Assembly (NCBI RefSeq): GCF_900110765.1
Contig: NZ_FOEO01000007.1
Location: forward strand, 62,001-126,000
Direction of reading: 5' to 3'
Length of the DNA: 64,000 bases
From: Pseudomonas sp. NFACC02
GTDB lineage: Bacteria > Pseudomonadota > Gammaproteobacteria > Pseudomonadales > Pseudomonadaceae
The position numbers and the translations under genes were made by a program. Positions 31,544-51,301 of the stretch are shown piece after piece; positions within the stretch are counted from its first letter, which is position 1; each line of letters opens with the position of its first letter. The notes beneath the pieces are model-generated. The model did no database searches, was not told the DNA's origin, and worked only from the letters and a program-made list of their open reading frames with translations.

Positions 31544-32437
31544 TCAGCGAAGCGCTCGCGCGACGCGCGAGTCATTGCCCCGGCCCAGCACTGCACTGAT
31601 GCGTTCACCTGCGGCAATCACTGCGCTGAGATCGATACCAGTATCGATACCAAGTTTGTCGAGTAGATAGAGCAGATCTTCGGTTGCGATGTTGCCACTT
31701 GCGCCTTTGGCATATGGACAACCGCCCAAGCCTGCGACGGAGCTGTCAAACACGGCAATACCTTCCTCAAGGCTGGCAAATATGTTGGTCAGAGCTTGAC
31801 CGTAAGTATCGTGGAAGTGTCCAGCCAGAAGTTGACGAGGCGTCATTCGTCCGACCACTTCAATCAAGCGACGGGTTTCGAGGGCCGTACCTGTACCGAT
31901 GGTGTCGCCTAGTGAAACTTCGTAGCAGCCCATAGCGACCAACTCCTGGGTCACCCACGCAACTCGCTCGGGTGCCACTGTGCCTTCGTAGGGACAGCCG
32001 AGAGCACAGGAGACATAGCCTCGTACAGCTACGCCATGTTGCCGGGCGCTATCCAGCAGCGGAACGAAGCGTTGCAAACTCTCGGTAATGGAGCAGTTGA
32101 TATTCTTCTGCGAGAAGGCCTCAGAAGCAGCGGTGAACACGGAGACCTCTTTGACCCCAGCTAGCAAGGCAGCGTCGAATCCTTTCAGATTCGGCGCTAA
32201 CGCTGCATAGGTAACACCGCGCTTTTGGCGTATCAGACCAAACAACTCGGCGCTATTGGCCATTTGCGGTACCCATTTGGGAGAGACGAAACTGCCAACT
32301 TCGATATAGCTGATACCGGCGTTGCTCAGGTCGTCGATCAACCGCACCTTATCAGCCACACTGATTTGCTGCTTCTCGTTTTGCAATCCGTCACGGGGAC
32401 CCACTTCGACTATTTTGACCGACTTGGGAAGGCTCAT
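31544..32437 (-). CDS. liuE: Hydroxymethylglutaryl-CoA lyase LiuE
   Basis: A 297-aa HMG-CoA lyase cleaving HMG-CoA into acetoacetate and acetyl-CoA, last step of the leucine/isovalerate route. Motifs: VEVGPRDGLQNEKQ with the catalytic Arg-Asp, the GCPY loop carrying the active-site Cys in SSVAGLGGCPYAKGASGNIATEDLLYLL, and metal ligands in HFHDTYGQALTNI. It overlaps liuD by four bases (ATGA), so translation is coupled. It is the last gene of the long minus-strand transcription unit. By eye its codon use is less GC-biased than liuB-D. Confidence 0.93.
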   Translation of the reverse strand: MSLPKSVKIVEVGPRDGLQNEKQQISVADKVRLIDDLSNAGISYIEVGSFVSPKWVPQMANSAELFGLIRQKRGVTYAALAPNLKGFDAALLAGVKEVSVFTAASEAFSQKNINCSITESLQRFVPLLDSARQHGVAVRGYVSCALGCPYEGTVAPERVAWVTQELVAMGCYEVSLGDTIGTGTALETRRLIEVVGRMTPRQLLAGHFHDTYGQALTNIFASLEEGIAVFDSSVAGLGGCPYAKGASGNIATEDLLYLLDKLGIDTGIDLSAVIAAGERISAVLGRGNDSRVARALR

Positions 32438-34392
32438 ACATCGCTCTCCAATTCAACCAACACCGTCCCTTCACCGACCATATCCCCTTCCTGGCAATAC
32501 AACGCCTTGATGACCCCGGCGTGTGGCGCGCGAATGTTGTGCTCCATCTTCATCGCTTCCAGCACCACCAATTGCGCTCCGGCCACGACCGTTTGCCCAG
32601 CCGCCACCAGCACGCGCACGATGCTGCCGTTCATTGGTGCGGTGAGCCCGCCCTGATGACTGTGACTGGCCTCGACGGCACTGATCGGGTCGTAGGACTC
32701 GATGCGGCGCAGTTCACCTTCCCATTGCAGATACACAACGTCACCACGGCGAATTGCCCGATGCTGGCGGCGCACGCCGTTGTGTTCGGTCAGCAAGTGT
32801 TCGCCCTTGAGCTGTGCGGTATGGGCATCGGACCCGCCCAGGGGCAGCGCCCGGTCTTGCCCTTCGCTGCTCAAGTGCAGGGTGATTTCTGTCGGCAGAC
32901 CCGTCCGGAAACCGTTGCTGTTGGCCCACGGCGAACTCAGGTCATCGGCGCGCGTTGAGCGCGGCTGGCTCTGGGCGAACGCCTGGGCAGCGGCTTGCCA
33001 GAACTCGTCACTGAGGTCGGACGCTGCCGGCAGCAGTTGCTCCTGATAACGCGGGATGAAGCCGGTATCCAGTTCGGCGGCAGCAAACGCCGGGTGGCCG
33101 ATGATCCGGCGCAGGAAGTTGATGTTGGTCTTGAGCCCGCCAATCGCAAACTCATCGAGCATGCTCAGCAAGCGCAGCCGCGCCTGTTCGCGGTCCTCGC
33201 CCCAGGCAATCAGCTTTCCGAGCATCGGATCGTAGAAGGGCGATATCTCATCGCCTTCTTCGACGCCACTGTCGACACGCCGCCCCGGACCTTCGGCGGA
33301 TTCGCGATACAACTCCAGACGCCCGGTGGCTGGTAGGAAATCATGGCTCGGGTCTTCGGCATACAGCCGCACTTCGATCGCATGGCCAATCAGCGGAACC
33401 TCTGCTTGAATCATCGGCAGCGCTTCGCCACGGGCGATGCGAATCTGCCAGGCCACCAGGTCCAGGCCAGTGATGGCTTCGGTGACCGGGTGTTCGACTT
33501 GCAGGCGCGTGTTCATTTCCATGAAGAAGAATTCGCCACGCGAATCCAGCAGAAACTCCACAGTACCGGCACCGACGTAACCGATGGCTTGTGCCGAACG
33601 CACGGCGGCTTCACCCATGGCGCGACGCAGTTCCGGACTCAGGCCGGGAGCCGGTGCTTCTTCGACGACTTTCTGGTGCCGACGCTGTATCGAGCAGTCA
33701 CGTTCGTTGAGGTACAGGCAGTTGCCATGTTGGTCGGCGAACACCTGGATTTCCACGTGGCGCGGCTTGAGCAGGTATTTCTCTACCAGCATCCGTGAAT
33801 CGCTGAACGAGGATTTCGCTTCACGCTGGGCCGAGGCCAGGGCTTCGGCCAGTTGGCTGACGTCCTCGACCACTTTCATGCCTTTACCGCCGCCCCCCGC
33901 GGTGGCTTTGAGCAGCACCGGATAACCAATGCGTTCGCAGGCGTCGCGGAAGGTGTCGAGGTCTTGCGCTTCCCCGTGATAGCCCGGCACCAGCGGCACG
34001 CCGGCGGTTTCCATCAAGGCTTTGGCGGCGGATTTGCTGCCCATGGCATCGATGGCCGAGGCGGGCGGGCCGAGGAAAATCAGGCCCGCTTCTTCGATGG
34101 CGCGGGCAAACCCGGCGTTCTCGGAAAGAAAACCATAACCCGGATGAATCGCCTGAGCGCCACTGGCCTTGGCGGCGGCGATCAGTTTGTCGATTTGCAG
34201 GTAACTGTCGGCGGCCTTGCTGCCACCGAGGTCGACGCGGATATCCGCTTCGCGGCTGTGCCGGGCTTCACGGTCGGTGGCGCTGTGTACGGCCACGGTG
34301 GTCAGGCCCAGGGCCTTGGCGGTGCGCATTACCCGGCAAGCGATTTCGCCGCGGTTGGCCACCAGCAGGGTGGTGATAACAGGTGCGCTCAT
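32434..34392 (-). CDS. liuD: Methylcrotonyl-CoA carboxylase biotin subunit LiuD
   Basis: A 652-aa alpha subunit carrying biotin carboxylase and BCCP domains. The carboxylase part has VANRGEIACRVMRTAKALGL, IHPGYGFLSENAGFARA, KATAGGGGKGMKVV and the ATP-grasp EMNTRLQVEHPVTEAITGLDLV. The C-terminal biotinyl domain has the biotin lysine in VLEAMKMEHNIRAP. With LiuB it carboxylates 3-methylcrotonyl-CoA to 3-methylglutaconyl-CoA. The ATG at 34392 overlaps the liuC stop by one base; twelve extra upstream codons are open but out of place for the operon. Confidence 0.93.
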   Translation of the reverse strand: MSAPVITTLLVANRGEIACRVMRTAKALGLTTVAVHSATDREARHSREADIRVDLGGSKAADSYLQIDKLIAAAKASGAQAIHPGYGFLSENAGFARAIEEAGLIFLGPPASAIDAMGSKSAAKALMETAGVPLVPGYHGEAQDLDTFRDACERIGYPVLLKATAGGGGKGMKVVEDVSQLAEALASAQREAKSSFSDSRMLVEKYLLKPRHVEIQVFADQHGNCLYLNERDCSIQRRHQKVVEEAPAPGLSPELRRAMGEAAVRSAQAIGYVGAGTVEFLLDSRGEFFFMEMNTRLQVEHPVTEAITGLDLVAWQIRIARGEALPMIQAEVPLIGHAIEVRLYAEDPSHDFLPATGRLELYRESAEGPGRRVDSGVEEGDEISPFYDPMLGKLIAWGEDREQARLRLLSMLDEFAIGGLKTNINFLRRIIGHPAFAAAELDTGFIPRYQEQLLPAASDLSDEFWQAAAQAFAQSQPRSTRADDLSSPWANSNGFRTGLPTEITLHLSSEGQDRALPLGGSDAHTAQLKGEHLLTEHNGVRRQHRAIRRGDVVYLQWEGELRRIESYDPISAVEASHSHQGGLTAPMNGSIVRVLVAAGQTVVAGAQLVVLEAMKMEHNIRAPHAGVIKALYCQEGDMVGEGTVLVELESDV

Positions 34393-35207
34393 CAACGCGG
34401 CTCCTTGGTGGAGGTGGCGGATTGCCAACTCGGCGGACGTTTTTGCAGGAAGGCCCGCAGACCTTCCTGGCCTTCGGGGCTGACGCGAATTCGGGCGATA
34501 GCGTCTTCGGTGTAGCAGCGCAGGGCCGGGGTCAATGCACCGTTGCCGACTTCACGCAGCAAGTCCTTGCTGACACGCATGGCGGCCGGACTGTTGAGCA
34601 ACAGGTTGTCGATCCACTGCTCGACTTGCTGTTCCAATTCAGCGGCCGGATAACTCTCCGACAACAAGCCGATTTCCCGCGCCCGTTGCCCGCCGAAACG
34701 TTCGGCAGTCAACGCATAACGCCGCGCCGCACGCTCGCCGATGGCTTGCACCGCGAACGGGCTGATCACCGCCGGGGCCAGGCCGATGCGCACTTCTGAC
34801 AGGCAGAACTGCGCGTCATCAGCACCAATGGCCATGTCGCAGCAACTGATCAGGCCTAGCGCGCCGCCGAATGCCGCGCCTTGCACAACGGCCAGGGTCG
34901 GGACTTTCAGTTTGGCGAGGTTGTACATCAACTCGGCCAGTTCCCGGGCGTCGTCGAGGTTGGTGGGGTAGTCGAGTTCGGCCGATTGCTGCATCCAGGC
35001 CAGATCGGCGCCGGCGCTGAAGTGTTTGCCACGGCCGCGCACCAGGAGGAATCGCAGGCTGGCATCCCTCGACACCTTGCCCAGGGCGAGGATCAGTTCA
35101 CGGATCATTTCCACGTTGAAGGCGTTGTTCTTTTCTTCTCGGCTGAGCCACAGGGTCGCAAAACCCCGTGGGTCGGTCAGCAGTTCGAGGGTGTTGAAGT
35201 CGCTCAT
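34392..35207 (-). CDS. liuC: 3-Methylglutaconyl-CoA hydratase LiuC
   Basis: A 271-aa enoyl-CoA hydratase/isomerase. It shows NNAFNVEMIRELILALGKV, the oxyanion motif HFSAGADLAWMQ and the second one in QGAAFGGALGLISCCDMAIGADDAQFCLSEVRIGLAPAVISPF, with the catalytic Glu. It hydrates 3-methylglutaconyl-CoA to HMG-CoA. I chose the ATG at 35207, nine bases after GGAGA; an ATG two codons earlier is too close to that box. A REPIN separates it from liuB. Confidence 0.92.
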   Translation of the reverse strand: MSDFNTLELLTDPRGFATLWLSREEKNNAFNVEMIRELILALGKVSRDASLRFLLVRGRGKHFSAGADLAWMQQSAELDYPTNLDDARELAELMYNLAKLKVPTLAVVQGAAFGGALGLISCCDMAIGADDAQFCLSEVRIGLAPAVISPFAVQAIGERAARRYALTAERFGGQRAREIGLLSESYPAAELEQQVEQWIDNLLLNSPAAMRVSKDLLREVGNGALTPALRCYTEDAIARIRVSPEGQEGLRAFLQKRPPSWQSATSTKEPR

Positions 35208-35233
35208 ATTCATCCGTCTCCACAACTCTGTTC

Positions 35234-35320: not shown

Positions 35321-36928
35321 TCACATCCGGAACACGCCGAAGCGGCTCGGGTCGATTGGCGCATTCAGCGACGCAGACAAGGCCAGGGCCAATACATCGC
35401 GGGTCTGCGCCGGGTCGATGACGCCGTCGTCCCACAAGCGAGCACTGGAATAGTACGGATGGCCCTGTTCTTCGTATTGGTCGAGGATCGGTTGCTTGAT
35501 CTCGGCTTCCTGCTCGGCGCTGAAACCCTGGCCACCGCGTTCGGCCTGCTCACGCTTAACCTGCACCAATACGCCAGCGGCTTGTTCGGCGCCCATCACG
35601 CCGATCCGCGCGTTCGGCCACATCCACAGGAAGCGCGGATCGTAAGCCCGGCCACACATCCCATAGTTACCGGCACCAAAACTGCCGCCGATGATCACGG
35701 TGAATTTCGGCACTTTGGCGCACGCCACGGCGGTCACCAATTTTGCGCCATGCTTGGCGATGCCACCGGCCTCGTATTTCTGGCCGACCATGAACCCGGT
35801 GATGTTTTGCAGGAACAGCAACGGAATGCCGCGCTGGCAGGCCAGTTCGATGAAGTGCGCGCCTTTCTGCGCAGCTTCGGCGAAGAGGATGCCGTTGTTG
35901 GCGAGGATCGCGATCGGGTAACCGTGCAAGTAGGCAAAACCACACACCAGTGTCGTCCCGAACAGCGCCTTGAACTCGTCGAACACCGAACCGTCTACCA
36001 ACCGCGAAATCACTTCGCGCACGTCGAACGGCTGCTTGGCGTCCGCCGACACCACGCCGTACAACTCGTCGCTGCTATAAAGCGGGGCGATGGGCGTACG
36101 TTGCTGGACTTCACCGAGCTTGCGCCAGTTGAGGTTGGCGATGCTGCGTCGGGCAATGGCCAAGGCGTGTTCGTCGCTCTCGGCATAGTGGTCGGCGACC
36201 CCGGAAATCTTGCAGTGCACATCGGCCCCGCCGAGGTCTTCGGCGCTGACCACTTCACCCGTGGCGGCTTTCACCAGCGGCGGGCCGGCGAGGAAAATCG
36301 TCGCTTGCTCGCGCACCATGATGGCTTCATCGGCCATGGCTGGCACATAGGCGCCACCGGCAGTGCATGAGCCCATGACCACTGCGATCTGCGGAATGCC
36401 CATGGCGCTCATGTTGGCCTGGTTGAAGAAAATCCGTCCGAAATGCTCGCGGTCCGGGAACACTTCATCCTGACGCGGCAGGTTGGCACCACCGGAGTCC
36501 ACCAGATAGATGCACGGCAAGCGGTTCTGCAGGGCAATGGTCTGGGCGCGCAGGTGTTTTTTCACGGTCAGTGGGTAATACGAGCCACCTTTCACGGTGG
36601 CGTCATTGGCGACGATCATGCATTCGACGCCTTCCACACGGCCGATTCCGGCAATCACGCCGGCGGCGGGAACGTCTTCGCCATACACCTCGTAGGCCGC
36701 CAGTTGGCTGATCTCGAGAAACGGCGAGCCCGGATCGAGCAGGCGATTGATGCGCTCACGGGGCAGCAATTTACCCCGCGAGGTGTGGCGTTCTTGAGCC
36801 TTCGGGCCGCCACCTTGCTGCACTTGGGCGAGCAGGGTGTGTAGGGCGTCGACTTGTTTGAGCATCGCCGCGCTATTGGCGGCGAACTCTGCCGAGCGCG
36901 GGTTGAGTTGAGTATGCAATATAGCCAT
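35321..36928 (-). CDS. liuB: Methylcrotonyl-CoA carboxylase carboxyltransferase subunit LiuB
   Basis: A 535-aa carboxyltransferase subunit, the same length as LiuB of P. aeruginosa and close to it from memory throughout, rather than to the geranyl-CoA carboxylase AtuC. Motifs include [73 protein letters not shown] and the C-terminal [54 protein letters not shown]. In other pseudomonads liuA (isovaleryl-CoA dehydrogenase) and the MerR gene liuR lie directly upstream. Here a MetA-family outer-membrane gene lies there instead. Confidence 0.94.
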
Positions 36929-37047: not shown

Positions 37048-37935
37048 TTAGAACAACTTGAGAAAGCGCATGTAAATACCGTAGCTACGCTCGAATCCAC
37101 CTTCAGCATCCAGGTCCTTCGAGAGCGTGAACATGCCTTGAAAAGTAGGCGTAAACATTTTTGCGTAACTAACCCGCACTCGATCCCAACGAGTGCGTGT
37201 ACCGTTGTCGATACCGTCCAGCTCTTGTTTTCCTCCCCAAGCCTTTTGGTACCCCAGAGCGATATGGGAGGTGTCGTTGAGGTGGTAACGCAACCAGGTA
37301 TACGCGGTGTATGTATTTTCCTGTTGTAGCGTTTGGTTTTGGCCATTGGCGCGATCATTGTCGCCATACCAGGTGACATCTCCAAGGATGTCCAAGGTAA
37401 ATTTATCGCTCAGTCCTTGCACATAACCAGCTTGTAACATGCCCTTCCACCGGTTTTCACCGAGGTTAAGTGGATCGTTTTTGTCGTAGCTACCAGTGGG
37501 TAAAATGATAAATGGGGAGATACCAAAGTAGCGACGCTTGGCTGGGTCATTAAGTAGCCAGAGGGTGGCTGCCAGTTGGATATCACCCATCCCTTCATTG
37601 CCGTCGATGGCTGCCCCACCGACCTTTGCATCGTGAATTTTACCGAAGGGAATAAGTATCTGCGGGTTGATCGTCATACCGAACACTTGAGTGTAGTGCG
37701 CGTAGCGGAGGATGCCGATATCGGTGTCCAGGCGCGCGGAACCCGGCACTTCATGCCCTTTGGCGTCTCGGTAAGTATTGCTATGACTGTGGTCGTAATA
37801 GAGCAGGCCGATATCGCTGCCAGGTGGCAGAGCCTCATAGTCACCGGCATCTGCATCGCCGGCCAGTGCACGTGTGCAGGCGAACAGCAGCGGGCAGAGC
37901 AAACTTGCGGACGAGCGAGAAAGAAGAGTCTTCAT
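37048..37935 (-). CDS. Outer-membrane MetA-pathway (phenol degradation-type) protein
   Basis: A 295-aa protein with a signal peptide ([20 protein letters not shown] then [11 protein letters not shown]). It belongs to the transporter/MetA-pathway-of-phenol-degradation family of outer-membrane beta barrels ([61 protein letters not shown] with the aromatic C-terminus). These are found with genes for hydrophobic or aromatic substrates and are thought to help uptake. AAGGTGA precedes the ATG, and an AATAACAA motif lies 24 bp upstream. It sits between the PPDK-like gene and liuB. Confidence 0.82.
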
Positions 37936-37958
37936 GTGAATCACCTTCGTATCATTTA

Positions 37959-37966
37959 TTGTTATT
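37959..37966 (-). promoter_or_regulatory. Crc/Hfq CA motif before the MetA-family gene
   Basis: On the transcript this reads AATAACAA, a match to AAnAAnAA, located 24-31 bases before the start codon and just upstream of the AAGGTGA box. The motif is known from Crc/Hfq-repressed catabolic mRNAs in Pseudomonas. Confidence 0.5.
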
Positions 37967-37998
37967 TTTGGTCGTCGTGTTTTTCCATCGCGCAGGCC

Positions 37999-38025
37999 CT
38001 GGCGGCCTGGAATGGAGGCCACCAG
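37999..38025. terminator. Strong hairpin between PPDK-like and MetA-family genes
   Basis: CTGGCGGCCT (37999-38008) and AGGCCACCAG (38016-38025) pair along ten positions with one wobble. A T run follows on the plus strand (GAGTTTTTG), but genes here run on the minus strand, where no T run follows. It may adjust mRNA decay between the two genes. Confidence 0.5.
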
Positions 38026-38050: not shown

Positions 38051-40528
38051 TTATGAGGCGGCTTGCCCTAGCCGCAGACGGACCAGCTGCCACTGCTGCA
38101 AGGGAATGCCGAAGTGACGGTAGCCCAATTGGTACAGCGCCTGGACCAGATCCAAGTCGCTGGCAAGAGCGCAGTCGACGCCCACGCAAGCGTCGGCCTG
38201 TGCAGCCTGAGTTCCCAGTTGTGCGAGCAGGTCCTTAAGGAATGGCTTGAGCGCGCTCCGGGGATTCCTGCTCATTACACCCTGCTGCAAGAACTCATCG
38301 AAGCATGCCGAAGAGAAATATCGTTCGGCCAGGAACCCGTGAGAAGAGCGTACGATCTGGTCCATATCCAGCCACAGGCAGGCCCCTTGCGCATGCATTT
38401 CCGGCGCTGACGCGAGTCCCGCAACACTATTGATCGATACTCCACCCTTCAATGCCGGGAACGCCTCCAGTTCGCAGGCGTAGCGTTGCCATTCCTCGGT
38501 CTCCGTGACACCACTGAGGAGCACCGTGAGAGTCTTCTCTGCCTGCTGGCAAGCCTGTTCAAGACCTTCCAGGATAGGTCGATAGAAGCCCGGATGGCCA
38601 AGCGGCAGGTGCAAACGCGGGTCGAGCTCAGACCATCCCGGTACCAGATTTCGTGCACGTTCAGAACTCAGGCGTGGCAGGCGCAGGTAGATTGGGCCTT
38701 GGTCAATTTTCTCCAGCAGCCACCGGCCGATTTGTTCAGCGACACTGCATAACAGATCTGTGGCATCGGCCTGGGCGAATTCCGTTTGTCCTATTTTTGC
38801 GACGGCGCTGACCAGATCGTCGATTAATCCAAGGGTCTCGGCGACATCGGTCATGCCGATTACCGAAATGCTGAGTGCCTCTGATGGGAGCCTGTCGATC
38901 TCTTGCAGGTGACCGACAGAACACGACAGATTCGCTTGCGACAGTTCATCTGCCCAGGCCAGTAACTGGATCAGTTCAGGCGAACCGCCAAGGTTGTTCG
39001 TCAGTGGCAGATCGCCCGCGTAAACAATGCCCGCGGCCCCATCCATGGACAGATAGTCCCCTTCGCGATGAAGCTTGCCGTCGATCTCGAAGGTACGTGC
39101 CTGCAAGTCGATCTGGATCGACTCACAGCCCACCACGCAGGGTTTGTCCTGGGCCCGCGAGACAACCGCGGCATGACTCAAGCCGCCGCCTTTGGCGGTA
39201 ACAATACCTTGCGCTGCGAGCATGCCACGAATGTCCATCGGGCTTGTGGTAGGGCGCAAAAGGATCACGCGCTGACCGCTGGCGGCCAGTTCTGCGGCAC
39301 GGTCAGCATCCAGCACCGCCACACCAGCGGCATGGCCAGGGGATGAGCCAATGCCGTTGGTCAACACCTGTGCTACCGACAACGCCGTAGTCTCGAAGGT
39401 TGGCCGAAGCAATCGCTTGAGTTGGTCGGATGTGACCATGGTCAGAGCCTGTCGTGGAAGGATCAGGCCCTCGCGAACCAGATCGTTCGCAATCTTAACT
39501 GCCGCTGACGCAGTGCACTTGGCTGCACGGACTTGCAGCAGGTACAACGTACCCGACTCAACGGTGAACTCGATGTCCACCGAGTTATGGTAGATCGCCT
39601 CGAGGGTGCGTCCGTACTCCTCCAGATCGGAACACAGTGCTGCATGCTCACCGCTCTGGGTGTGCGCCAGATCGACGGGAGTGCTTTCACCAGAGACCAG
39701 GTCTTCGCCCTGGCGGCCAGTAAGATACTCGCCATACAGTTTGCGTTCTCCGGTGTTCGGATTGCGGGTAAAGGCCACACCTGATCCGGAGTTGGCATCG
39801 GAATTCCCGAACACCATTGCCTGTACCGTCACTGCCGTACCCAGGTCGTCAGAGATTCCAAGATGCTTACGGTAGGCCTTGGCACGCGAACTGTCCCAAG
39901 AGTCGAAGACGGCCTTCACTGCATGCAACAATTGTTCGTGTGGGTCCAGTGAGACTTGCTCACCGTCTTCCTCGAAGGAGCGCACCAGCGCCATCTCCAG
40001 CTGACTCAATGTTGCTTCGCTGGGGGATGCCTCGGCTTCTGTGCGTTGCGCGGTCACCCGACCGATGATTTCTTCACCATCAAGCCCTAGAACAATATCA
40101 GCGTACATGCGCCAGAAGCGCATCCAGGTATCGATAACGAACGCAGAGTTGCCACTCGCCTCGATCATGCGCCACGCAGCGCGGGCATCCAGCCCCAGGT
40201 TGAGCACCGTGTCCATCATTCCCGGCATACTGACCTGCGCCCCTGAACGCACAGAAACCAGCAGGGGCATACCTCCAGTGTTGAACGACTTGGCGCATTT
40301 GCCGCCCAACTGATCCATGGCCTCTCGTACTTGCTGGATCAATCTCTGCGGGAGTTGCTTCCCGGACTGACGATAAACGTGGAAAGCATCAGTGCCGATG
40401 GCGAAGGCTGGCGGAACTGGAATTCCTGCCTCCACCATGCGCGCCAGCCCTGTTGCCTTGCCCCCGAAACGGGCACTGTCCAGGGCGTCCAGATGTTCGA
40501 TGTCCCACACAAACTGCTGCATGTTCAT
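38051..40528 (-). CDS. PPDK-like kinase with degenerate pyruvate/PEP site
   Basis: An 825-aa protein with the architecture of pyruvate phosphate dikinase. The ATP-grasp domain (1-345) has RSGAQVSMPGMMDTVLNLGL at 94-113 and GVAFTRNPNTGERKLYGEYL at 250-269. The swivel domain has GGGLSHAAVVSR with the phosphohistidine at about 452. The C-terminal 300 residues correspond to the TIM barrel but have lost its signatures: GTNDLTQ reads LDMDQIV and the catalytic-Cys motif CGEHGGD reads VDCALASD. So ATP-to-His phosphorylation is likely, but the acceptor is probably not pyruvate. By analogy with phenylphosphate synthase it may phosphorylate an alcohol. GAGGTG precedes the ATG at 40528. Confidence 0.8.
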   Translation of the reverse strand: MNMQQFVWDIEHLDALDSARFGGKATGLARMVEAGIPVPPAFAIGTDAFHVYRQSGKQLPQRLIQQVREAMDQLGGKCAKSFNTGGMPLLVSVRSGAQVSMPGMMDTVLNLGLDARAAWRMIEASGNSAFVIDTWMRFWRMYADIVLGLDGEEIIGRVTAQRTEAEASPSEATLSQLEMALVRSFEEDGEQVSLDPHEQLLHAVKAVFDSWDSSRAKAYRKHLGISDDLGTAVTVQAMVFGNSDANSGSGVAFTRNPNTGERKLYGEYLTGRQGEDLVSGESTPVDLAHTQSGEHAALCSDLEEYGRTLEAIYHNSVDIEFTVESGTLYLLQVRAAKCTASAAVKIANDLVREGLILPRQALTMVTSDQLKRLLRPTFETTALSVAQVLTNGIGSSPGHAAGVAVLDADRAAELAASGQRVILLRPTTSPMDIRGMLAAQGIVTAKGGGLSHAAVVSRAQDKPCVVGCESIQIDLQARTFEIDGKLHREGDYLSMDGAAGIVYAGDLPLTNNLGGSPELIQLLAWADELSQANLSCSVGHLQEIDRLPSEALSISVIGMTDVAETLGLIDDLVSAVAKIGQTEFAQADATDLLCSVAEQIGRWLLEKIDQGPIYLRLPRLSSERARNLVPGWSELDPRLHLPLGHPGFYRPILEGLEQACQQAEKTLTVLLSGVTETEEWQRYACELEAFPALKGGVSINSVAGLASAPEMHAQGACLWLDMDQIVRSSHGFLAERYFSSACFDEFLQQGVMSRNPRSALKPFLKDLLAQLGTQAAQADACVGVDCALASDLDLVQALYQLGYRHFGIPLQQWQLVRLRLGQAAS

Positions 40529-40538
40529 TGTCGTCACC

Positions 40539-43920: not shown

Positions 43921-44928
43921 TTACTCCTCGATAATCGGCAAATGGCGCGTCATCGCCCGGCTGTTCAAGGCGGTCAGTTGGGGTAACTCGAAAAAGTCCT
44001 GGATTTCCCCGAAACCAGTCAGTCCTTGGCACTGCCACCGCGCCAGAACGTTAAACGACGTCATGTTCGGCCAGCACTGCCAAGGGAAGGTGGTCAGGCC
44101 GTTGGCTTCGAGCGTCCAGGTGCGGTCATCGCAATCGACCAGCTCCAGGGCGACCGTCTGCGCGTAGCGATCGCTGTGGCGGACGACTTCACCTGTCCCG
44201 GCCTTGAGGCCAAAAACGCGTCCGCGCTCGACCACATAGCCGTGGGTGAGGGAAAGCTGACGGCCATTATCTTCGGGGTCGAAACTGAAGATTGCATGCA
44301 CCGCCAGGTCTCTCGAGAAGTGCGCGTGCAGCCAGCTCATGTTTGGCGAGCCGCGTTCCGGACGCGGTCCCCAGCTGTGGTCCATGGTCGAGATGCAATC
44401 GATGGGGATTACCCGCCCACGCAAGGTGACTGAGCCCGTGACGTGACCGGTCTGGTCAAAGTGCCCGTTGTAAGCGGTCCCCCAGGAAAAGTCATCGGCA
44501 TGCAAGCTGACCATTGGGTCCATGTCCGGATCGTGGATATCGAAAGCCGGCATGATTGCGCGATAGGTCACGTCAATACGGGTACCCGCATCGTCGTCGA
44601 AGTCGATTTTCCATACGCTGTTTGGCTCCAGGCAAACCACATGCAGGCCGTTATCCAGGCGGTAGTCGAGCAAGTTACGTGGTGAGGGAATTGGCATCGC
44701 CGCTTGATAGTCGCAATAGTCAGCATGCCAAGGCGTGGTGGCCTGACCGGAGTTCATGCAGATCGTTGAGCTGACGATACCCAGATTGGTTCGAAACAGC
44801 GCATACACGCCTATGTTGAGATGCTCCTCCGCGTTGTAGAAACCGAAGAAGTTGGTCTCCGCCCAGTTGGTCTGGCCACTGTCGGGGGTATGGAATTGCG
44901 CATCTTCTGCATTGATCATGAAGCTCAC
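43921..44928 (-). CDS. CrtC/AttH-like (DUF7064-type) lipocalin-fold protein
   Basis: A 335-aa soluble beta-rich protein. The pattern THSWG-type motif appears as ISTMDHSWGPRPERGSPNMSWLHAHFS, and GHFDQTGHVTGSVTLRGRVIPIDC precedes it, as in the AttH/CrtC-like and DUF7064 families. Carotenoid 1,2-hydratase CrtC belongs to this fold and adds water at a tertiary carbon, so a hydratase or dehydratase role on a branched alkenol is imaginable but unproven. AGGTGAG precedes the ATG. Identification is by remembered motif only. Confidence 0.6.
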   Translation of the reverse strand: MSFMINAEDAQFHTPDSGQTNWAETNFFGFYNAEEHLNIGVYALFRTNLGIVSSTICMNSGQATTPWHADYCDYQAAMPIPSPRNLLDYRLDNGLHVVCLEPNSVWKIDFDDDAGTRIDVTYRAIMPAFDIHDPDMDPMVSLHADDFSWGTAYNGHFDQTGHVTGSVTLRGRVIPIDCISTMDHSWGPRPERGSPNMSWLHAHFSRDLAVHAIFSFDPEDNGRQLSLTHGYVVERGRVFGLKAGTGEVVRHSDRYAQTVALELVDCDDRTWTLEANGLTTFPWQCWPNMTSFNVLARWQCQGLTGFGEIQDFFELPQLTALNSRAMTRHLPIIEE

Positions 44929-44997: not shown

Positions 44998-46521
44998 TCA
45001 GGCGCGCAGTTCGCGCAGTTCGCGGCGCATGATTTTGCCGGTACTGGTCTTGGGCAGGCTTTCCACGAAAGTCACGCATCGCGGCACCTTGTAGGCGGCC
45101 AATTGGCCCCGGCAGAAGTCGAGGATTGAGCTTTCGCTGGCATTCATTCCGGGTTTGAGGACGATGAAGGCCTTGGCCAACTCGCCCTTGATCTCGTCAT
45201 GGATGGGGGCCACCGCCACCATCGCCACGGCGGGATGGCTAGCCAGCACCTGCTCCAGTTCCGCCGGGTAAATCTTGTAACCGGCAGTGATGATCATGTC
45301 CTTCAGGCGGTCAACAATGCGGATGTAACCTTGCTTGTCGATGCATGCAATATCGCCAGTTCGCAACCAGCCACCCTCGAGCAGGTTGTCTCGGGTTGCC
45401 TGCTCGTTGCGGTAGTAGCCCTGCATGATCATCGGGCCCCGTACCAGTAGTTCTCCAGGTTCATTGGTATTCAACAGCCGTTCCGGGTTCTCGTAATCGA
45501 CGACCTTGGCCTCGACTCCAGGAAAGGGTTGACCGACTGAGCCGTGCCGGTGCGGTAAGTAGGGCGAATGGGAAATCACAGGCCCGGCGGTCTCAGTCAT
45601 ACCCCACAGTTCCAGCAACGGACAGCCCATGGCGGCGACAATCTCCTCGATCTTGGCCGTCGGCATTGTTTGTCCGCCAACCGTGCAATGGAGCAGCGAT
45701 GACAGGTCGGTTTGCAGAAAGCTGGGATCCACCAACATGTAATAGAACATGGTCGGTACACCCTCGAAGAGCGTAGCCTTGTGCCGTTGGATACTCTGCA
45801 ACGCCCAGCTGGGGTCGAAGCGCTCACAGGTAATCAGCGTCATACCGACCAGGAAGCAGCTATTCATCACCACGTTGCCATATACATGCGGGAACGGCAG
45901 TGCGCTGACAACACGCTCACCGGGGTGGCGACCATGAACGGTGGCCGTTAGCGCAGTGCTTGTAAAAACGCAGCGGTGGCTGAGCATTGCGCCCTTGGGC
46001 TGGCCCGTGGTGCCAGAGGTGTAGCCGATGGTGAAGAGCTCCTCAGGATCGACCTCGACCGGCTCCACTGGCAGTGCATCGAACAGGGTTCGAAAGTCAG
46101 TAGCGCTTTTGGTTTCCCGTTGCTTCCCCTCGCGCAGCATACCTATCAGATGGGCATTGCGACTTTGATCGAAGCGCTCCAATGCTGCGCAGCGTTCGTC
46201 AGGAGCAATAACCGCGACAGCTTCGGAGTCAGTCAGCATATAGGCGACCTCCTCGATACTGAGCAGGAAGTTCGCGGGTACCACCACTGCGCCCAGACGG
46301 GCGATGGCGTAGTAAGCAACTATCCACTCCCAGCCATTGGGCAAGTGCAGCAGTACACGCTGCCCCCGCTTGACCCCGAGCTTGCGCAGACCGCCAGCGA
46401 AGGTTGCTGCGAGTTCATCAATTTGTTTGAAGCTCAGTTGTTCCTCGCCAATGATCAGCGCGGTGCGGTCGCCGAAACGCTGCGACGCACGTGAGCTCAG
46501 AGTACTCATTATTGCGTTCAT
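44998..46521 (-). CDS. AMP-forming acyl-CoA ligase
   Basis: A 507-aa ANL-superfamily ligase. Motifs: YTSGTTGQPKGAMLSHR (ATP/Mg), LWGMTETAGPVISHS, GELLVRGPMIMQGYY, RTGDIACIDKQGYIRIVDRLKDMIITAGYKIYPAELE and the C-terminal catalytic lysine in KTSTGKIMRREL. It activates a carboxylic acid as acyl-CoA. Given the alcohol and aldehyde dehydrogenases upstream and liuBCDE downstream, 3-methylcrotonate is a reasonable candidate substrate (inference). GAGGG precedes the ATG at 46521. Confidence 0.9.
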   Translation of the reverse strand: MNAIMSTLSSRASQRFGDRTALIIGEEQLSFKQIDELAATFAGGLRKLGVKRGQRVLLHLPNGWEWIVAYYAIARLGAVVVPANFLLSIEEVAYMLTDSEAVAVIAPDERCAALERFDQSRNAHLIGMLREGKQRETKSATDFRTLFDALPVEPVEVDPEELFTIGYTSGTTGQPKGAMLSHRCVFTSTALTATVHGRHPGERVVSALPFPHVYGNVVMNSCFLVGMTLITCERFDPSWALQSIQRHKATLFEGVPTMFYYMLVDPSFLQTDLSSLLHCTVGGQTMPTAKIEEIVAAMGCPLLELWGMTETAGPVISHSPYLPHRHGSVGQPFPGVEAKVVDYENPERLLNTNEPGELLVRGPMIMQGYYRNEQATRDNLLEGGWLRTGDIACIDKQGYIRIVDRLKDMIITAGYKIYPAELEQVLASHPAVAMVAVAPIHDEIKGELAKAFIVLKPGMNASESSILDFCRGQLAAYKVPRCVTFVESLPKTSTGKIMRRELRELRA

Positions 46522-46531: not shown

Positions 46532-47638
46532 TCAGGTGTTGAAGCGCACCACGGCCTTGAGCACTTCGCCGTTCTCGGAATCCTTCACTGCCTGCTCGAT
46601 TTGCTCGAAGGGGTAGAAGGAGATGAGCCGGTCAAAGGGAAAAGTGCCCTGGCGCCAAAGCTCGATGAGCTGGGGAATGAATATGTCGGGAACGCTGTCG
46701 CCTTCGATAATGCCGCGTACGGTGCGACCAAAGAGAATGCTGTTCATGTCCAGTTGCACTTCCGTACCCAGCGCGGCTGCGCCGATAAGACCGCAGACGC
46801 CCGTTTGTCGCAGAGCATCTACTGCCTGACGCAGGACCTTAGGCAGTGCGGTGCACTCCAGCGAGAACTGCACACCCTCGCCAGTTAACGCACGGATGGC
46901 GTCGACCGGATCTTGCGTGCCCGCGGCGATCACATGGGTGGCGCCTAGTTCCAAGGCAAGTTCCAGACGCGTCGAATTCATGTCCACGGCGATGATGGTG
47001 GTACAGCCGACCAGCTTTGCAGCCATGATCGCGGACAGTCCGACCGAGCCGACACCAAAGATTGCAATACTGCTACCAGCGCCGGGTTTCAGGGCGTTGA
47101 TCACTGCGCCAGCGCCGGTCTGTATACCGCAACCTAGAGGCCCCATGATCTCAAGCGGTACGTCTTTTGGAATCTTTACCAGATTACGCGGTGATGCCAG
47201 CGCCATTTCGCCAAAGGAGGACTGGCAGAAGAAGCAACCACTCACGTTGTGACCTTGCTCATCCTGGTACGGGGTGCTGCCGTCCGGGCGGGCACCGCTG
47301 AAATTGCGCCCAAACAATTCCACACAATAGCCATTCAGCCCTTGCAGACAGTTGGCACATTCGCCGCAACTGGCATAAGTCATCACCACATGATCACCTG
47401 GGGCGACCTTGGTCACACGGCCGCCGACCTTCCTGACGATGCCGGCACCTTCGTGGCCGAGCACTGCGGGCAATGGCACAGGGTAATACTGGTCGCGCAC
47501 GACGATATCGGTGTGGCAGATGCCGGTGGCGACAATCTCAACCAGCACTTCGTCTGCCCGCGGCTCTTCGAGCTGGAGTTGCTCGATTCCAAAGGAGCCG
47601 AATTTTTCGCGAACGACAGCGGCTTTTACCTTAAGCAT
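46532..47638 (-). CDS. Zn-dependent alcohol dehydrogenase (XylB/GeoA type)
   Basis: A 368-aa medium-chain dehydrogenase of the benzyl/allylic alcohol group. The catalytic zinc site is GICHTDIV and GHEGAGIVRKVG. The four structural-zinc cysteines are in CGECANCLQGLNGYC. The Rossmann motif is FGVGSVGLSAIMAAKLVGC, with acidic VDMN for NAD. It resembles XylB and geraniol dehydrogenases, which oxidise aromatic or allylic primary alcohols. It is followed by the acyl-CoA ligase gene after 10 bp. A perfect AAGAACAA motif touches its AGGAGA ribosome binding site. Confidence 0.9.
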   Translation of the reverse strand: MLKVKAAVVREKFGSFGIEQLQLEEPRADEVLVEIVATGICHTDIVVRDQYYPVPLPAVLGHEGAGIVRKVGGRVTKVAPGDHVVMTYASCGECANCLQGLNGYCVELFGRNFSGARPDGSTPYQDEQGHNVSGCFFCQSSFGEMALASPRNLVKIPKDVPLEIMGPLGCGIQTGAGAVINALKPGAGSSIAIFGVGSVGLSAIMAAKLVGCTTIIAVDMNSTRLELALELGATHVIAAGTQDPVDAIRALTGEGVQFSLECTALPKVLRQAVDALRQTGVCGLIGAAALGTEVQLDMNSILFGRTVRGIIEGDSVPDIFIPQLIELWRQGTFPFDRLISFYPFEQIEQAVKDSENGEVLKAVVRFNT

Positions 47639-47660: not shown

Positions 47661-47687
47661 GTTCTGGAATACTGCTGCTGAGTCCGG

Positions 47688-49142
47688 TTACAGCGGTCGG
47701 CTCATGACGGTCTGGACGTTGGTGTATTCACTCAGTCCGTCGAGCGCGTTCTCGATTCCCAGCCCCGATTGTTTGTGGCCACCGAAGGCGATATGTGGCG
47801 AGAAAACGTGGACCTGATTGATCCATACGGTACCAGCCTGGATTCTCTGGGCTACCGCCTGGGCTTGCGCCAGATCACGGCCCCAGACTGATGCGGCCAA
47901 GCCGTATTCAGTGTTGTTGGCACGCTCGACTACTTCGTCGATGGAGTGGTAGCGCAACAGTGGAAGTACCGGGCCGAAGGCTTCTTCGACCACGCAGCGG
48001 GCGTCGTCCGGCGGGTTATCGATCAGCGTGATGGGGATGAAATAGCCTTTGCCGCGCGGCACTTCGCCGCCGGCCAGGAAACGCAGACCGGCATTCCGGC
48101 TGCTTTCGATCAGCCCGCACACTTTGTCGTATTGCATTTGGTTCTGCAGCGGGCCGAGCTTGGTTTCCGGATCCAGACCATTGCCGAGCGTAACCTGTGC
48201 GGCGTATTCACTCAGAGCGTGCGCCACCTCGTCGTAGATCGAGTCGTGGATGTACAGGCGCTTGGTCGCCACACAGAACTGCGCGCTATTCTGGAAGGCG
48301 GCCCAAAACAATTCTTTGGCAATCGCGTGCGGATCCACGTCCGGTAAAACGATCGCCGGATCATTGCCCCCAAGCTCCAGAGTGACGCGCTTAATGTTAC
48401 TAGCAGCGCTTTTCATCACCAGTCGACCGGTGGCGGTAGAGCCAGTGAAGGAGATCTTGTCGACCTGCGGATGTTCAGTCAGCCACTGCCCCATCTCATT
48501 ACCACCGGCGACGACGTTCAACACGCCGGGAGGTAGAATTGCCTGGGCCAGTTCGCCGAACCACAGTGTGCACAGAGGAGTGTAGGGGGATGGCTTGACT
48601 ACCAGCGTATTGCCGGCGAGCAGTGCTGGGGCGATTTTCCACAGCGCCAGGAGCATCGGAAAGTTCCACGGTGTGATAGCACCCACCACGCCCAATGGAA
48701 CATGACGGGTCACTACTCGACCTTCGGCATCATCGCGAATCACCTTTTCCGGCAATGATTGCTTGGCGATCTCCTGTAGCCAATGGATGCAGCCGCCGAT
48801 TTCCCACTCGGCGCCGGCACGTGCCTTGCCCTGCTCCAGGGTCAGCAAGCGCATGAAATCTTCCTGGTACAGGGTAAGCATCTCTGCCAGCTCGGTAATC
48901 TTGCTCTGACGATAGGCTAGCGAAGTCTGGCTCCATGCGGGAAAAGCGCTCCGGGCACTTTCCACGGCTGCTTCGAGTTCTTTTCGACCACCTGCTGAGT
49001 GCTCAGCGAATACCTCGCCCGTTGCCGGGTTAATGACCCCCTGGCGTTCGGTATGGACAGACATGCCGGCGATAGTAAGGGGGAAACGAGTATTGGGCAG
49101 TAGCGGTTTGGTATTCGCAGGTGTTTTTCGAAGCTGGCTCAT
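47688..49142 (-). CDS. NAD-dependent aldehyde dehydrogenase
   Basis: A 484-aa aldehyde dehydrogenase, first gene of the operon. Catalytic and cofactor elements: [67 protein letters not shown] with the general-base Glu, and [15 protein letters not shown] with the nucleophilic Cys. [13 protein letters not shown] and the C-terminal [19 protein letters not shown] complete the family. The ATG at 49142 fits the predicted sigma-54 start site; an earlier in-frame ATG at 49181 would leave almost no leader. An AATAAAAA motif overlaps the start codon. Confidence 0.9.
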
Positions 49143-49149
49143 TTTTATT
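49142..49149 (-). promoter_or_regulatory. Crc/Hfq CA motif overlapping the aldehyde dehydrogenase start
   Basis: AATAAAAA, ending in the A of the ATG, matches AAnAAnAA and lies just after GAGAG. Confidence 0.5.
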
Positions 49150-49202
49150 CTCTCAACAGGGGCCGTGTTAATTTCCGCCAAGGTAGCTCTGTCATGAGAA
49201 AT

Positions 49203-49218
49203 AGCAGAATGCGTGCCA
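49203..49218 (-). promoter_or_regulatory. Sigma-54 (-24/-12) promoter of the catabolic operon
   Basis: On the minus strand the sequence is TGGCACGCATTCTGCT. It matches the consensus TGGCACG-N4-TTGCW with one mismatch (C for the first T of the -12 box), and the GG and GC pairs are separated by exactly 10 bp. Transcription would start near 49192, about 50 nt before the aldehyde dehydrogenase start. A divergent sigma-54 activator gene lies just upstream. Confidence 0.82.
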
Positions 49219-49324: not shown

Positions 49325-49340
49325 CTTTGCAGCTCCAAAG
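49325..49340. promoter_or_regulatory. Candidate activator-binding palindrome
   Basis: CTTTGCAGCTCCAAAG is a near-perfect palindrome (14 of 16 positions) about 107 bp upstream of the -24 element, the usual distance for an enhancer site of a sigma-54 activator. Confidence 0.42.
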
Positions 49341-49389
49341 TTCGACTCATGGACGAGATAGACCTGCGTAGGGAGTCGGTGCATGATGA

Positions 49390-49397
49390 AAGAAAAA
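49390..49397 (+). promoter_or_regulatory. Crc/Hfq CA motif before the activator gene
   Basis: AAGAAAAA (AAnAAnAA) directly precedes the AGAGG ribosome binding site of the sigma-54 activator. Regulator mRNAs are frequent Crc/Hfq targets. Confidence 0.5.
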
Positions 49398-49411
49398 AAG
49401 AGGTCCGCACC

Positions 49412-51301
49412 ATGCCGTTGATCTCCAGCATTACGCAGGAGTCCCTTCTGAAAGCCCGCGAAGACTTTGCCGAGGGGCTGGAGATTCCTCCTAACCTGAT
49501 TCCCGATGCCTTGGCACTTTCCTGGGAGCGTTCGCGCAGCGCCGGCCTCACGCCCTATAGTCGCGGCCTAGACAAAGTTCTGCCCGAACGTTTGAAAGTC
49601 GAGCAGACCCTTGAGGATAATCAGTGGCTGATCAGCCACGTGCAGCCCGAAATGCAGTTGCTCTGGCAATCACTAAAAGACCCATACTGGACACTGTTGT
49701 GCATCAACAATCAGGGCTTGATCATCCATCACCACAATTCCGAGTCCGCAACTACTCCTACCCTGAAATACCTGAGCACCGGGCGTGTGTTACTGGAAAA
49801 TGAAATCGGGACAACCGCACCAGGTTGCTCGCTGCGTGAAGGTCGGCCCATTATCGTGGACTCGAACCAGCATTACCTCAGCGAACTCGATAAATTCTTC
49901 TGCGCTGCTGTACCGATCCGCACTCCGGAAGGCCACTTGTTGGGTGTGCTGGATGTAACTGGAGTGGACAGTCAGCCCCCTCTTTGGTTACAAGAACGCC
50001 TCAACCTGACAGCCCTGGCCATCGAGAACCGTCTGTACCTTGATTTTCAGGATTGTTCGCTCCTGCACGTACATGCCGATCCACGATTAATCGACACCCC
50101 ACTTGAAGGCATCATCGCCGTCGACCCGGAAGGTCGCCTGCTTCATGCCAACCGAAGTGCCAAGTGTTTGCTTGGCCTGGATCAGGAGAGCGCCTTAAAG
50201 ACATCGACCTCGTTGGAGACCCTGTTTGGCGTTCGGGGTCAGCGGATCTTTGACAAACTACGGATGTTTCCAGACGAAACCCACTCAATACCGTTGATTA
50301 ATGGTCATCCGCTCTTCGCTCGCCTGCGAAGCCCGACGGAACGAGTTCACTCTCTGCAGAGCGCAGCGATTTTATCAAGTTCTGGCCGACCACCATCGCG
50401 TGCATTTGCTCATGATTTGATATTGGAAAAAGCCTTCAAAATGGCGAGTCAGGCATTCGCAGGTGAAGTTCCAATCCTGATGCAGGGCGAGACGGGCACT
50501 GGCAAGGAAGTCTTCGCTAAAGCACTGCACGATAACCTCGCAGCCACCGGTCCATTCGTAGCCATCAACTGCTCGGCGATTCCCTCTAACCTGATCGAGG
50601 CCGAACTTTTTGGCTACAGTGATGGTGCCTTTACCGGCGGGCGAAAAGGAGGGGCAATCGGCAAGATCGAGCTGGCCAACGGTGGCACGCTATTCCTCGA
50701 CGAGATCGGCGACATGCCACTAGACATGCAGACTCGCCTGCTGCGCGTGCTGCAGGAACGCAATCTCTGCCGCATCGGCGATACGCGCGTTATCCCGCTG
50801 GATTTTCGACTGCTCAGCGCTTCCCACCGGAACCTGGAGGCACTTGTGGCAGAGCATACATTCCGCGAGGATCTGTTCTACCGTATCAACGGTTTTTGCG
50901 TGACACTTCCAGCCCTTCGTGAAAGAAGCAACCTTGCAGCGCTGATCGACGATTTGTTGCAACAACTCTCTCCGGATCTCCCCAAGACGCTATCACCGGC
51001 AGCACTGAAAGCACTGCTTGATTACTCTTGGCCCGGCAACGTTCGCCAGTTGCAACAAGCACTGAAAGTGGCCTGTATTTTCAGCGGCGAACAGAGTCTC
51101 ATCGATATAGAGAACTTCCCTCCAGATCTGCAAGGCAAATTGCTGTCCAATCGGGACCAAAATTCGGGCCAATCCCCTCTCAAACGCTTAGAGATTGATG
51201 CCATTCATAAGGCCCTGGCACAGAATCAGGGCAACATCTCGGCGACAGCTAGCCAGTTAGGGCTTTCCCGATCGACCTTGTACAAAAAACTTCGTTGCTG
51301 A
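49412..51301 (+). CDS. Sigma-54-dependent activator, AcoR-type
   Basis: A 629-aa enhancer-binding protein. Residues about 80-210 form a GAF sensor, typical of AcoR (SLREGRPIIVDSNQHY, FCAAVPIRTPEGHLLGVLDVTG), and 230-290 a PAS-like segment. The AAA+ domain has Walker A GETGTGKE (359-366), a GAFTGG loop in place of the usual GAFTGA, and Walker B LFLDEIGDMP. The C-terminal Fis-type HTH is ISATASQLGLSRSTLYKKL. I use the ATG at 49412, after AGAGG; an ATG at 49349 is in frame. Divergent from the operon, it probably activates the promoter at 49203-49218 in response to a pathway compound. Confidence 0.9.
   Translation: MPLISSITQESLLKAREDFAEGLEIPPNLIPDALALSWERSRSAGLTPYSRGLDKVLPERLKVEQTLEDNQWLISHVQPEMQLLWQSLKDPYWTLLCINNQGLIIHHHNSESATTPTLKYLSTGRVLLENEIGTTAPGCSLREGRPIIVDSNQHYLSELDKFFCAAVPIRTPEGHLLGVLDVTGVDSQPPLWLQERLNLTALAIENRLYLDFQDCSLLHVHADPRLIDTPLEGIIAVDPEGRLLHANRSAKCLLGLDQESALKTSTSLETLFGVRGQRIFDKLRMFPDETHSIPLINGHPLFARLRSPTERVHSLQSAAILSSSGRPPSRAFAHDLILEKAFKMASQAFAGEVPILMQGETGTGKEVFAKALHDNLAATGPFVAINCSAIPSNLIEAELFGYSDGAFTGGRKGGAIGKIELANGGTLFLDEIGDMPLDMQTRLLRVLQERNLCRIGDTRVIPLDFRLLSASHRNLEALVAEHTFREDLFYRINGFCVTLPALRERSNLAALIDDLLQQLSPDLPKTLSPAALKALLDYSWPGNVRQLQQALKVACIFSGEQSLIDIENFPPDLQGKLLSNRDQNSGQSPLKRLEIDAIHKALAQNQGNISATASQLGLSRSTLYKKLRC

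Follow-up and report, generated by a model that had tools for sequence, protein, structure and literature searches.

A six-gene core with a PPDK-like protein and a separate phosphohistidine swivel as a candidate split phosphotransferase for C5 alcohol catabolism in Pseudomonas sp. NFACC02

We analyzed a window of 64,000 nucleotides (nt) from Pseudomonas sp. NFACC02 (contig NZ_FOEO01000007.1, positions 62,001 to 126,000; coordinates below are those of the window unless another locus is named). On its minus strand 14 co-oriented genes run from 49181 to 31544. Six of them, referred to here as the core, encode a PPDK-like protein, a phosphohistidine swivel, a 469-aa protein, a 189-aa protein, a HAD phosphatase and an AttH-like protein (the labels are our own). 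All 14 genes are present and of the kinds listed in an earlier sequence-only reading, as confirmed with the open reading frame (ORF) list and Pfam. The core quite probably encodes a phosphotransferase that works together with an aldehyde pathway. For the full route, in which the core as a split phosphotransferase of the phosphoenolpyruvate (PEP) synthase type would turn 2-methyl-3-buten-2-ol (MBO) into prenol, and prenol would be converted to 3-methylcrotonyl-CoA and degraded by liuBCDE, the case for and the case against are evenly balanced in our judgement.

A conserved core around a phosphohistidine swivel

A scan of genome contigs, selecting by conserved peptides, yielded 65 loci with the core (L numbers denote loci compared here). 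Swivel and 469 genes are present in all 65, the 189 gene in 60, the PPDK gene in 59, the HAD gene in 55 and the AttH-like gene in 54. The complete set of six was found in 50 loci, from proteobacteria to actinobacteria. In nine of the 15 incomplete loci the contig ends near the core. The remaining six have 10 kb on both sides and lack the 189 and PPDK genes (L021), the PPDK gene (L037) or the AttH-like and HAD genes (L053, L054, L058 and L069). Loss of the latter pair was rejected as an argument, since L006, which is related to L053 and L054, has both genes at a distance of about 12 kb from the 469 gene, beyond the stretch examined (up to 10 kb on each side of the core, available in full in 43 of the 65 loci). 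In 64 of 65 loci the swivel and 469 genes share a strand and are no more than 300 nt apart; the 469 gene lies within 300 nt of the 189 gene in all 60 loci with both, the 189 gene within 400 nt of the PPDK gene in 58 of 59, and the AttH-like gene within 500 nt of the HAD gene in 54 of 54. This gene order is not due to chance.

The swivel (137 aa; 42698..43111, minus strand; PF00391, with His75 in PESHLGI), the 469-aa protein (41254..42663, minus strand) and the 189-aa protein (40539..41108, minus strand; no Pfam match) are, judged from their sequences, pieces of one enzyme, because they are fused in this order along a single 793-aa chain encoded on plasmid pROB02 of Rhodococcus opacus B4 (46% to the swivel, 37% to the 469-aa protein and 26% to the 189-aa protein). 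With this fusion as query 314 proteins were found among 7,998 scored candidates, and the names of the best 120 of these 314 include Gordonia, Amycolatopsis, Nocardioides, Curtobacterium and Pseudonocardia. Chains of the swivel-469(-189) type were also met in records of Gordonia, Amycolatopsis, Nocardioides and Pseudonocardia, where a length of about 590-600 aa fits swivel-469 alone, and one protein of 1383 aa carries two swivel-469 units followed by a 189 part. The 189-like part of a related fusion shows weak matches to MarR winged-helix domains. His515 of the PPDK-like protein, His75 of the swivel and D10, D12, K137, D178 and D182 of the HAD phosphatase (43210..43917, minus strand) each account for 97% or more of the residues aligned at that position, in alignments of 63, 53 and 50 rows, respectively. 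The fusion bears out the earlier claim that the swivel, the 469-aa and the 189-aa protein form a set with the PPDK-like protein.

The 469-aa protein is the candidate substrate-binding and phosphoryl-acceptor part. It had no match in sequence searches of Pfam, NCBIfam or PDB, and its AlphaFold model, which is confident, had no PDB match by Foldseek at E 0.001. Predicted confidence (pLDDT) falls below 50 only around residues 88-91, within the loop RATEGESGMIPRQ; in the loop R87-ATEGESGMIPR-Q99 the residues R87, A88, E90, G91, S93, G94 and I96-Q99 do not vary among 101 sequences. The protein has 615 homologues at E 0.001, the best 120 of them 74-85% identical (self excluded) and including Methylocella and Amycolatopsis, and across phyla it is 67-82% identical to that of the window (65 core loci, chosen by conserved peptides). 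In a profile search for distant relatives the best 120 of 670 proteins were all close ones; the divergent forms came from a search of plasmids (8 records).

The neighborhoods of the divergent forms vary. The R. opacus fusion gene lies between two kinase genes of the EcKL/APH type together with a PF13350 phosphatase gene (pROB02, L007:2407-16875), and the region also contains a P450, an aldehyde dehydrogenase (ALDH), an alcohol dehydrogenase (ADH) and a CoA ligase family gene. Distant relatives of the 469, swivel, 189 and PPDK genes on plasmid pA of Rhodococcus pyridinivorans (L009:5296-23565) are accompanied by genes annotated as biotin carboxylase, carboxyltransferase, thiolase and AMP-ligase, and those on Novosphingobium plasmid pSA1 (L010) by biotin-carboxylase-like and ligase-like matches. 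A phosphorelay of the same kind may drive a carboxylation route there.

The PPDK-like protein (38051..40546, minus strand) combines an ATP-grasp and a phosphohistidine domain, both with their conserved residues retained, with a degenerate PEP/pyruvate barrel. Its ORF was listed with 888 aa from a TTG at 40717, a reading in which it shares 179 nt with the 189-aa gene; the protein more likely starts at an ATG near 40528-40546 (H515 follows the numbering of the listed ORF). Residues 68-597 match PPDK (E 6.5e-122 to 9pzl). The same residues score 531.4 bits against the full-length model TIGR01828, below its cut-off of 843.45, while the short model NF004531 (PRK05878) gives 488.2 bits, above its cut-off of 456. 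A profile made from the C-terminal part of eight PPDK-like members still finds the PPDK barrel (E 2.1e-12), and the R. opacus protein, with about 570 aa, does without the barrel. The stretches GTNDLTQ and GICGE hold the catalytic residues of PPDK for pyruvate and PEP. Opposite these stretches the eight core members have different and varying residues. Because of this replacement and variability the protein looks unable to make PEP, which would be an unexpected product. It resembles PPDK in its ATP-grasp and phosphohistidine domains and differs from it in falling short of the TIGR01828 cut-off and in not keeping the catalytic stretches of the barrel.

Split subunits of this type are known from phenylphosphate and phenylphosphoamidate synthases of Thauera and Desulfatiglans, which are related to PEP synthase and PPDK, carry a phosphohistidine, and pass a phosphate of ATP to an organic hydroxyl or amine, thereby activating it for catabolism (PMC7500099). 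The likeness to the core, with its separate PPDK-like and swivel proteins, is one of architecture only. Phenylphosphate synthase acts on aromatic substrates and its product is carboxylated, whereas the core has the 469-aa protein as candidate substrate part, a separate 137-aa swivel and a donor with a degenerate barrel. A precedent for a catabolic route in which a tertiary alcohol is phosphorylated at the expense of ATP is the 25-hydroxysteroid kinase of Sterolibacterium; this enzyme, however, is a phosphotransferase-type kinase of about 40 kDa with a sterol substrate, its reaction sequence ends in an alkene, and tert-butanol is used at less than 0.1% of the rate (PMC8449060). The tertiary phosphoester formed by it was measured to lie slightly above the ATP beta-gamma bond in transfer potential (PMC8449060), so that a donor of the PEP-synthase type would be energetically sensible. 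Phenylphosphate synthase is AMP-forming (PMC7500099), and a donor that spends two ATP bonds would overcome the energy cost of the tertiary ester.

The AttH-like protein (43921..44928, minus strand) belongs to DUF7064/DUF7065, a family for which we adopted this label, after the sequence-only reading, as an assumption. It is weakly similar to Rv3169, below the cut-off of that family, and D183-H184-S185-W186 and other residues are conserved in 56 aligned rows. It is a candidate for a rearrangement or hydration step; proteins of the CrtC/AttH type are hydratase-like. In 15 of the 65 loci a PF13350-type gene (tyrosine-phosphatase family) is found about 1.2 kb or less from the PPDK gene, for example at L022:14863-15564; the family was assigned with Pfam in L022 and R. 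opacus, and in the other loci by similarity to the protein of Methylibium PM1. Its product is a possible second phosphatase of the pathway.

The hydratase-like nature of CrtC/AttH-type proteins and the weak MarR matches of the 189-like part would also suit an explanation without phosphorylated intermediates, in which the AttH-like or the 469-aa protein isomerizes the alcohol without a cofactor and the phosphohistidine set serves as a phosphorelay for regulation or transport. Linalool isomerase provides a precedent for this reaction type, since linalool isomerase/dehydratase-isomerase shifts a tertiary allylic hydroxyl to give a primary alcohol (PMC4791888). These enzymes are other proteins (membrane-anchored or periplasmic), set apart from the core by their description. 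To our knowledge, no ATP step takes part in their reaction. A cofactor-free isomerization is opposed by the HAD phosphatase found in 55 of the 65 loci, by the PF13350-like phosphatase gene near the PPDK gene in 15 of them, and by the fusion of swivel, 469 and 189 as enzyme parts would be fused, and we regard it as improbable.

Microcompartment genes near the core

Genes for the shell of a bacterial microcompartment (BMC) are found near the core in 51 of the 65 loci, and a BMC ALDH in 41, all of them among these 51; full core and shell genes occur together in 44 loci. From two annotated records (Methylibium PM1, L088; R. oxybenzonivorans, L006) and Pfam/NCBIfam we read the content of the BMC locus: pentamer and hexamer shell proteins, a CcmP-like BMC protein, an EutJ-like protein, a malate/lactate-type dehydrogenase, a Zn-dehydrogenase, a PucR-type regulator and an ALDH of the acylating type. 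The best families of the PM1 BMC ALDH are CoA-acylating ones (TIGR02518 with 490 bits, under the cut-off of 620, AdhE and SauS). The Zn-dehydrogenase and the acylating-type ALDH could replace the ADH, ALDH and ligase of the window. A phosphotransacylase is not named in the annotated stretches of PM1 and pRB98; no search with hidden Markov models was made for one.

This gene content resembles the MIC1 locus, for which AldDH, lactate/malate-type and zinc-binding dehydrogenases, an MreB-like protein (EutJ) and a phosphatase were described, and for which the text on this locus recognizes no signature enzyme (Axen 2014; PMC4207490). Shell proteins, AldDH, both dehydrogenase types, the MreB-like protein and the phosphatase are all present in PM1 (L088) and R. 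oxybenzonivorans (L006). The likeness is one to the gene list in the text of PMC4207490, and it differs in that the genome of the window has no shell genes. For the MIC1 hydrolase listed besides the phosphatase the sole candidate in L006 and L088 is the HAD protein itself. In a later survey MIC2-7, not MIC1, are listed as new loci without an obvious signature enzyme (Sutter 2021; PMC8217296), and the words kinase and dikinase do not occur in the main text of that paper (PMC8217296). We infer that the core is the signature enzyme of MIC1.

In a tree of the 469-aa protein (68 rows, midpoint root; L012, L030 and L072, in which no full 469 ORF was called, were left out) the window groups with Xanthobacter (L017) and Endobacter (L019) with support of 100/96, inside a larger set that mostly carries shell genes. 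Given this nesting under a midpoint root, loss of the shell in the lineage of the window is the simpler reading. The window may then contain the same pathway after shell loss, having gained a cytosolic ALDH, a CoA ligase and its own liuBCDE; this broader reading as a whole we put forward tentatively, its chances being somewhat short of even.

Two or more of the three window-type genes (ADH, ALDH and ligase) are located near the core in 10 of the 65 loci, five of which also have shell genes, and genes for methylcrotonyl-CoA carboxylase (MCC) adjoin the core in one of the 65, Endobacter L019 (MCC beta 66% and alpha 46%). Thus, the tie between the kinase set and the ADH, ALDH, ligase and liu genes that the sequence-only reading had assumed did not hold: in most loci the kinase genes travel without them, an outcome that this reading, taken literally, had named as refuting it. 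In favor of that interpretation are the set of swivel, 469-aa, 189-aa and PPDK-like proteins, the conserved catalytic histidines and HAD residues, the degenerate barrel, the liu genes without liuA and the connection to PM1 described below. We keep the central idea as partly supported, since the place of ADH, ALDH and ligase is taken in most loci by another dehydrogenase and an acylating-type ALDH.

Candidate substrate and route

MBO is a plant volatile. It is also a metabolite in the degradation of fuel oxygenates, and its mineralization may proceed via isomerization to prenol in Aquincola L108, Methylibium PM1 and P. putida MB-1; the passage on MBO states that the enzymes of this isomerization have not been characterized (PMC4791888). 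The methyl tert-butyl ether (MTBE) plasmid of PM1 contains two sets of genes related to the core. The BMC locus (L088:14059-19293, corresponding to plasmid positions 452058-457292) encodes an AttH-like protein (68%), a HAD protein (53%), a PPDK gene (48%), a partial swivel match and a 469 gene of which about 100 residues are left. A second set consists of AttH-like (62%), 469-like (31%), swivel (40%) and 189 (44%) genes and a HAD match that spans one quarter of the protein. Another PPDK gene (39%), at 506782-509313, lies 2.9 kb from a Rieske gene (502407-503870) and its reductase gene. By position and annotation we map the Rieske gene to mdpJ (Mpe_B0555), close to which the PF13350-type gene of PM1 is also located. 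MdpJ is listed as tert-butanol (TBA) hydroxylase (PMC4517660, Table 7). In favor of the link to MBO, PM1, named as an organism that may isomerize MBO to prenol (PMC4791888), carries the module and has one of its PPDK genes 2.9 kb away from mdpJ. Among the literature matches listed, there was neither a phosphorylation route for MBO nor a kinase in the MIC1 locus.

Two further observations were made on the PM1 loci. A locus from a metagenome-assembled genome (MAG), L024, has all six core genes, and its proteins are 88-97% like those of PM1 outside the core remnants. In the second PM1 set a 153-aa protein is encoded between the 469-like and swivel genes (L008:16261-16722), with no match in the other loci compared.

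In the window, the core is followed by genes for an MCC beta subunit (liuB; 35321..36928), an enoyl-CoA hydratase family protein, liuC-type by context (34392..35225), an MCC alpha subunit (liuD; 32434..34428; PF21139, BT_MCC_alpha) and an HMG-CoA lyase-type protein (liuE; 31544..32437), all on the minus strand. They are a second copy: another liu operon is located on contig 69 of the same genome, with identities of 90% for liuB, 81% for liuC, 79% for liuD and 71% for liuE. The contig 69 operon has a 402-aa gene of the acyl-CoA-dehydrogenase family between liuE and liuB, in the place of liuA (no isovaleryl-CoA dehydrogenase model matched this gene, which is a liuA by position alone), and no acyl-CoA-dehydrogenase (liuA) gene is found among the cluster genes of the window. 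Since liuA is missing, a compound entering at 3-methylcrotonyl-CoA, an entry point taken from the known pathway, would suit the liu set of the window. In this respect the sequence-only reading, which had proposed a liu route without isovaleryl-CoA dehydrogenase, was right about the gene content.

Taken together with the PM1 plasmid, the most likely substrate of the core would be MBO, and the following route can be proposed. The ATP-grasp domain of the PPDK-like protein would phosphorylate its own His515, as its conserved PPDK residues suggest, and the phosphoryl group would pass to His75 of the swivel. The 469-aa protein would bind the alcohol and take over the phosphoryl group of the swivel with the help of the 189-aa protein, for which the one-chain fusions argue. 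In the least certain step, the tertiary allylic phosphate would ionize or be displaced, with the AttH-like protein steering the reaction to the primary carbon. The HAD enzyme would hydrolyze prenyl phosphate to prenol, or alternatively remove stray phosphate esters. Prenol would be converted via prenal to 3-methylcrotonyl-CoA by the ADH, ALDH and ligase encoded in the window, and in most other genomes by the Zn-dehydrogenase and acylating-type ALDH of the MIC1-like microcompartment. In the window, liuBCDE without liuA would complete catabolism.

If correct, this route would assign genes to the MBO-to-prenol step, for which the passage cited states that characterized enzymes are lacking (PMC4791888). 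An orphan type of microcompartment, described in 2014, would gain a substrate class and a signature enzyme, and a widespread 469-aa family, named by none of the family libraries searched, would gain a function. MBO being both a fuel-oxygenate metabolite and a plant volatile, the route would also bear on bioremediation and carbon cycling.

Several findings weigh against the route. The PPDK-like protein passes the PRK05878 cut-off, so that a pipeline naming proteins by model would label it PPDK, and the role assigned to the AttH-like protein is speculative. Of the two PM1 sets, the one on the BMC side has a truncated 469 gene and a partial swivel match, and in the second set the 469-like protein is distant and the HAD match short. 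Close homologues of MdpJ (60-63%) occur in only 2 of 45 core genomes (41 not titled MAG and 4 titled MAG, drawn from the 65 loci), and none was found in the genome of the window. Both of these homologues are encoded next to the core (in L021 1.4 kb beyond the 469 gene, in L037 5 nt beyond the 189 gene), which speaks for the route, but neither locus has a PPDK gene within 10 kb, and L021 lacks the 189 gene as well. Since MdpJ is listed as tert-butanol hydroxylase, its neighborhood could mean other tertiary alcohols. A search of the window genome for the shell family PF00936 gave 0 matches. MCC genes adjoin the core only in L019 and the window, which are close kin in the 469 tree. The presence of MCC anywhere in a genome (cut-off E 1e-170) was tried as a test and abandoned, as it does not discriminate core carriers: MCC was found in 43 of the 45 core genomes and in 96 of 100 genomes from the actinobacterial family of one of them (p = 1.0). 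At the same cut-off it was present in 42 of 142 other genomes of the class of the window. Finally, relatives outside the core clade likely have other substrates.

An alternative explanation keeps the split phosphotransferase and the ADH/aldehyde logic and lets the core activate another small alcohol (for example of the tert-butanol type, isoprenol or 3-buten-2-ol) for elimination or hydration, liuBCDE having been recruited locally. It is in line with the lack of an MCC gene in the examined stretch of 64 of the 65 loci and with the MdpJ/2-hydroxyisobutyryl-CoA mutase neighborhood of PM1, which serves tert-butanol. In addition, divergent relatives sit with P450, EcKL/APH kinase or biotin carboxylase genes, and because their neighbors vary in this way the wider family likely has many substrates. 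Within the core clade, however, the 67-82% identity of the 469-aa protein across phyla argues for one constant substrate, and the window carries a dedicated liuBCDE without liuA; another substrate is therefore possible, if rather doubtful. A kinase set and a phosphatase around a C5 alcohol could also yield dimethylallyl phosphate, and thus salvage prenol or isoprenol for isoprenoids or prenyl-FMN instead of degrading them. Co-location with ADH, ALDH, ligase, a porin-like gene and liuBCDE, or with the BMC aldehyde dehydrogenase, speaks against salvage, and neither a prenyltransferase nor UbiX/UbiD is named in the annotated loci L006, L007, L008 and L088, in which no search was aimed at them; salvage appears very improbable.

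Other genes of the cluster and its regulation

Upstream of the core, the minus strand encodes an ALDH (47688..49181; PF00171, 1.2e-151), a Zn ADH (46532..47638; Pfam and similarity to solved sequences) and an AMP-forming acyl-CoA ligase (44998..46521; PF00501, 1.3e-91). Of the solved sequences, the ADH is best matched by 5tnx, a zinc-binding alcohol dehydrogenase, followed by 1f8f, a benzyl alcohol dehydrogenase. Between the PPDK and liuB genes lies a gene for a Phenol_MetA_deg-type (porin-like) protein (37048..38022, minus strand; PF13557, 3.3e-34).

The divergent gene on the plus strand (49349..51301) encodes a sigma-54-dependent activator with AAA+ (PF00158, 9.4e-60) and Fis-type helix-turn-helix (PF02954, 4.2e-11) domains and a weak PAS match. 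In the 167 nt that separate this gene from the divergent ALDH gene, upstream of the latter, a -24/-12 (sigma-54) promoter-like site was found at 49203..49218 on the strand of the operon (minus), a consensus match with one mismatch to TGGCAC-N5-TTGCW, which we take to be the consensus. Sites with one mismatch are not rare: the whole window contains 5, compared with a mean of 3.57 in shuffled sequences.

Among 57 genomes of relatives of the window (36 of the same genus), the core was found only in the window's own, and this rarity suggests recent transfer. The GC content (0.583 in the cluster, 0.584 in the left and 0.598 in the right flank) gives no sign of it. In L045, the contig with the core is filed under a Klebsiella pneumoniae MAG and groups with the gammaproteobacterial MAG locus L037, so that the binning may be wrong. 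Further downstream of the activator gene, a DUF1329 protein (54781-56151) adjoins a LuxR/MalT-type regulator (51727-54486), and DUF1329/DUF1302 genes are also present on the PM1 plasmid.

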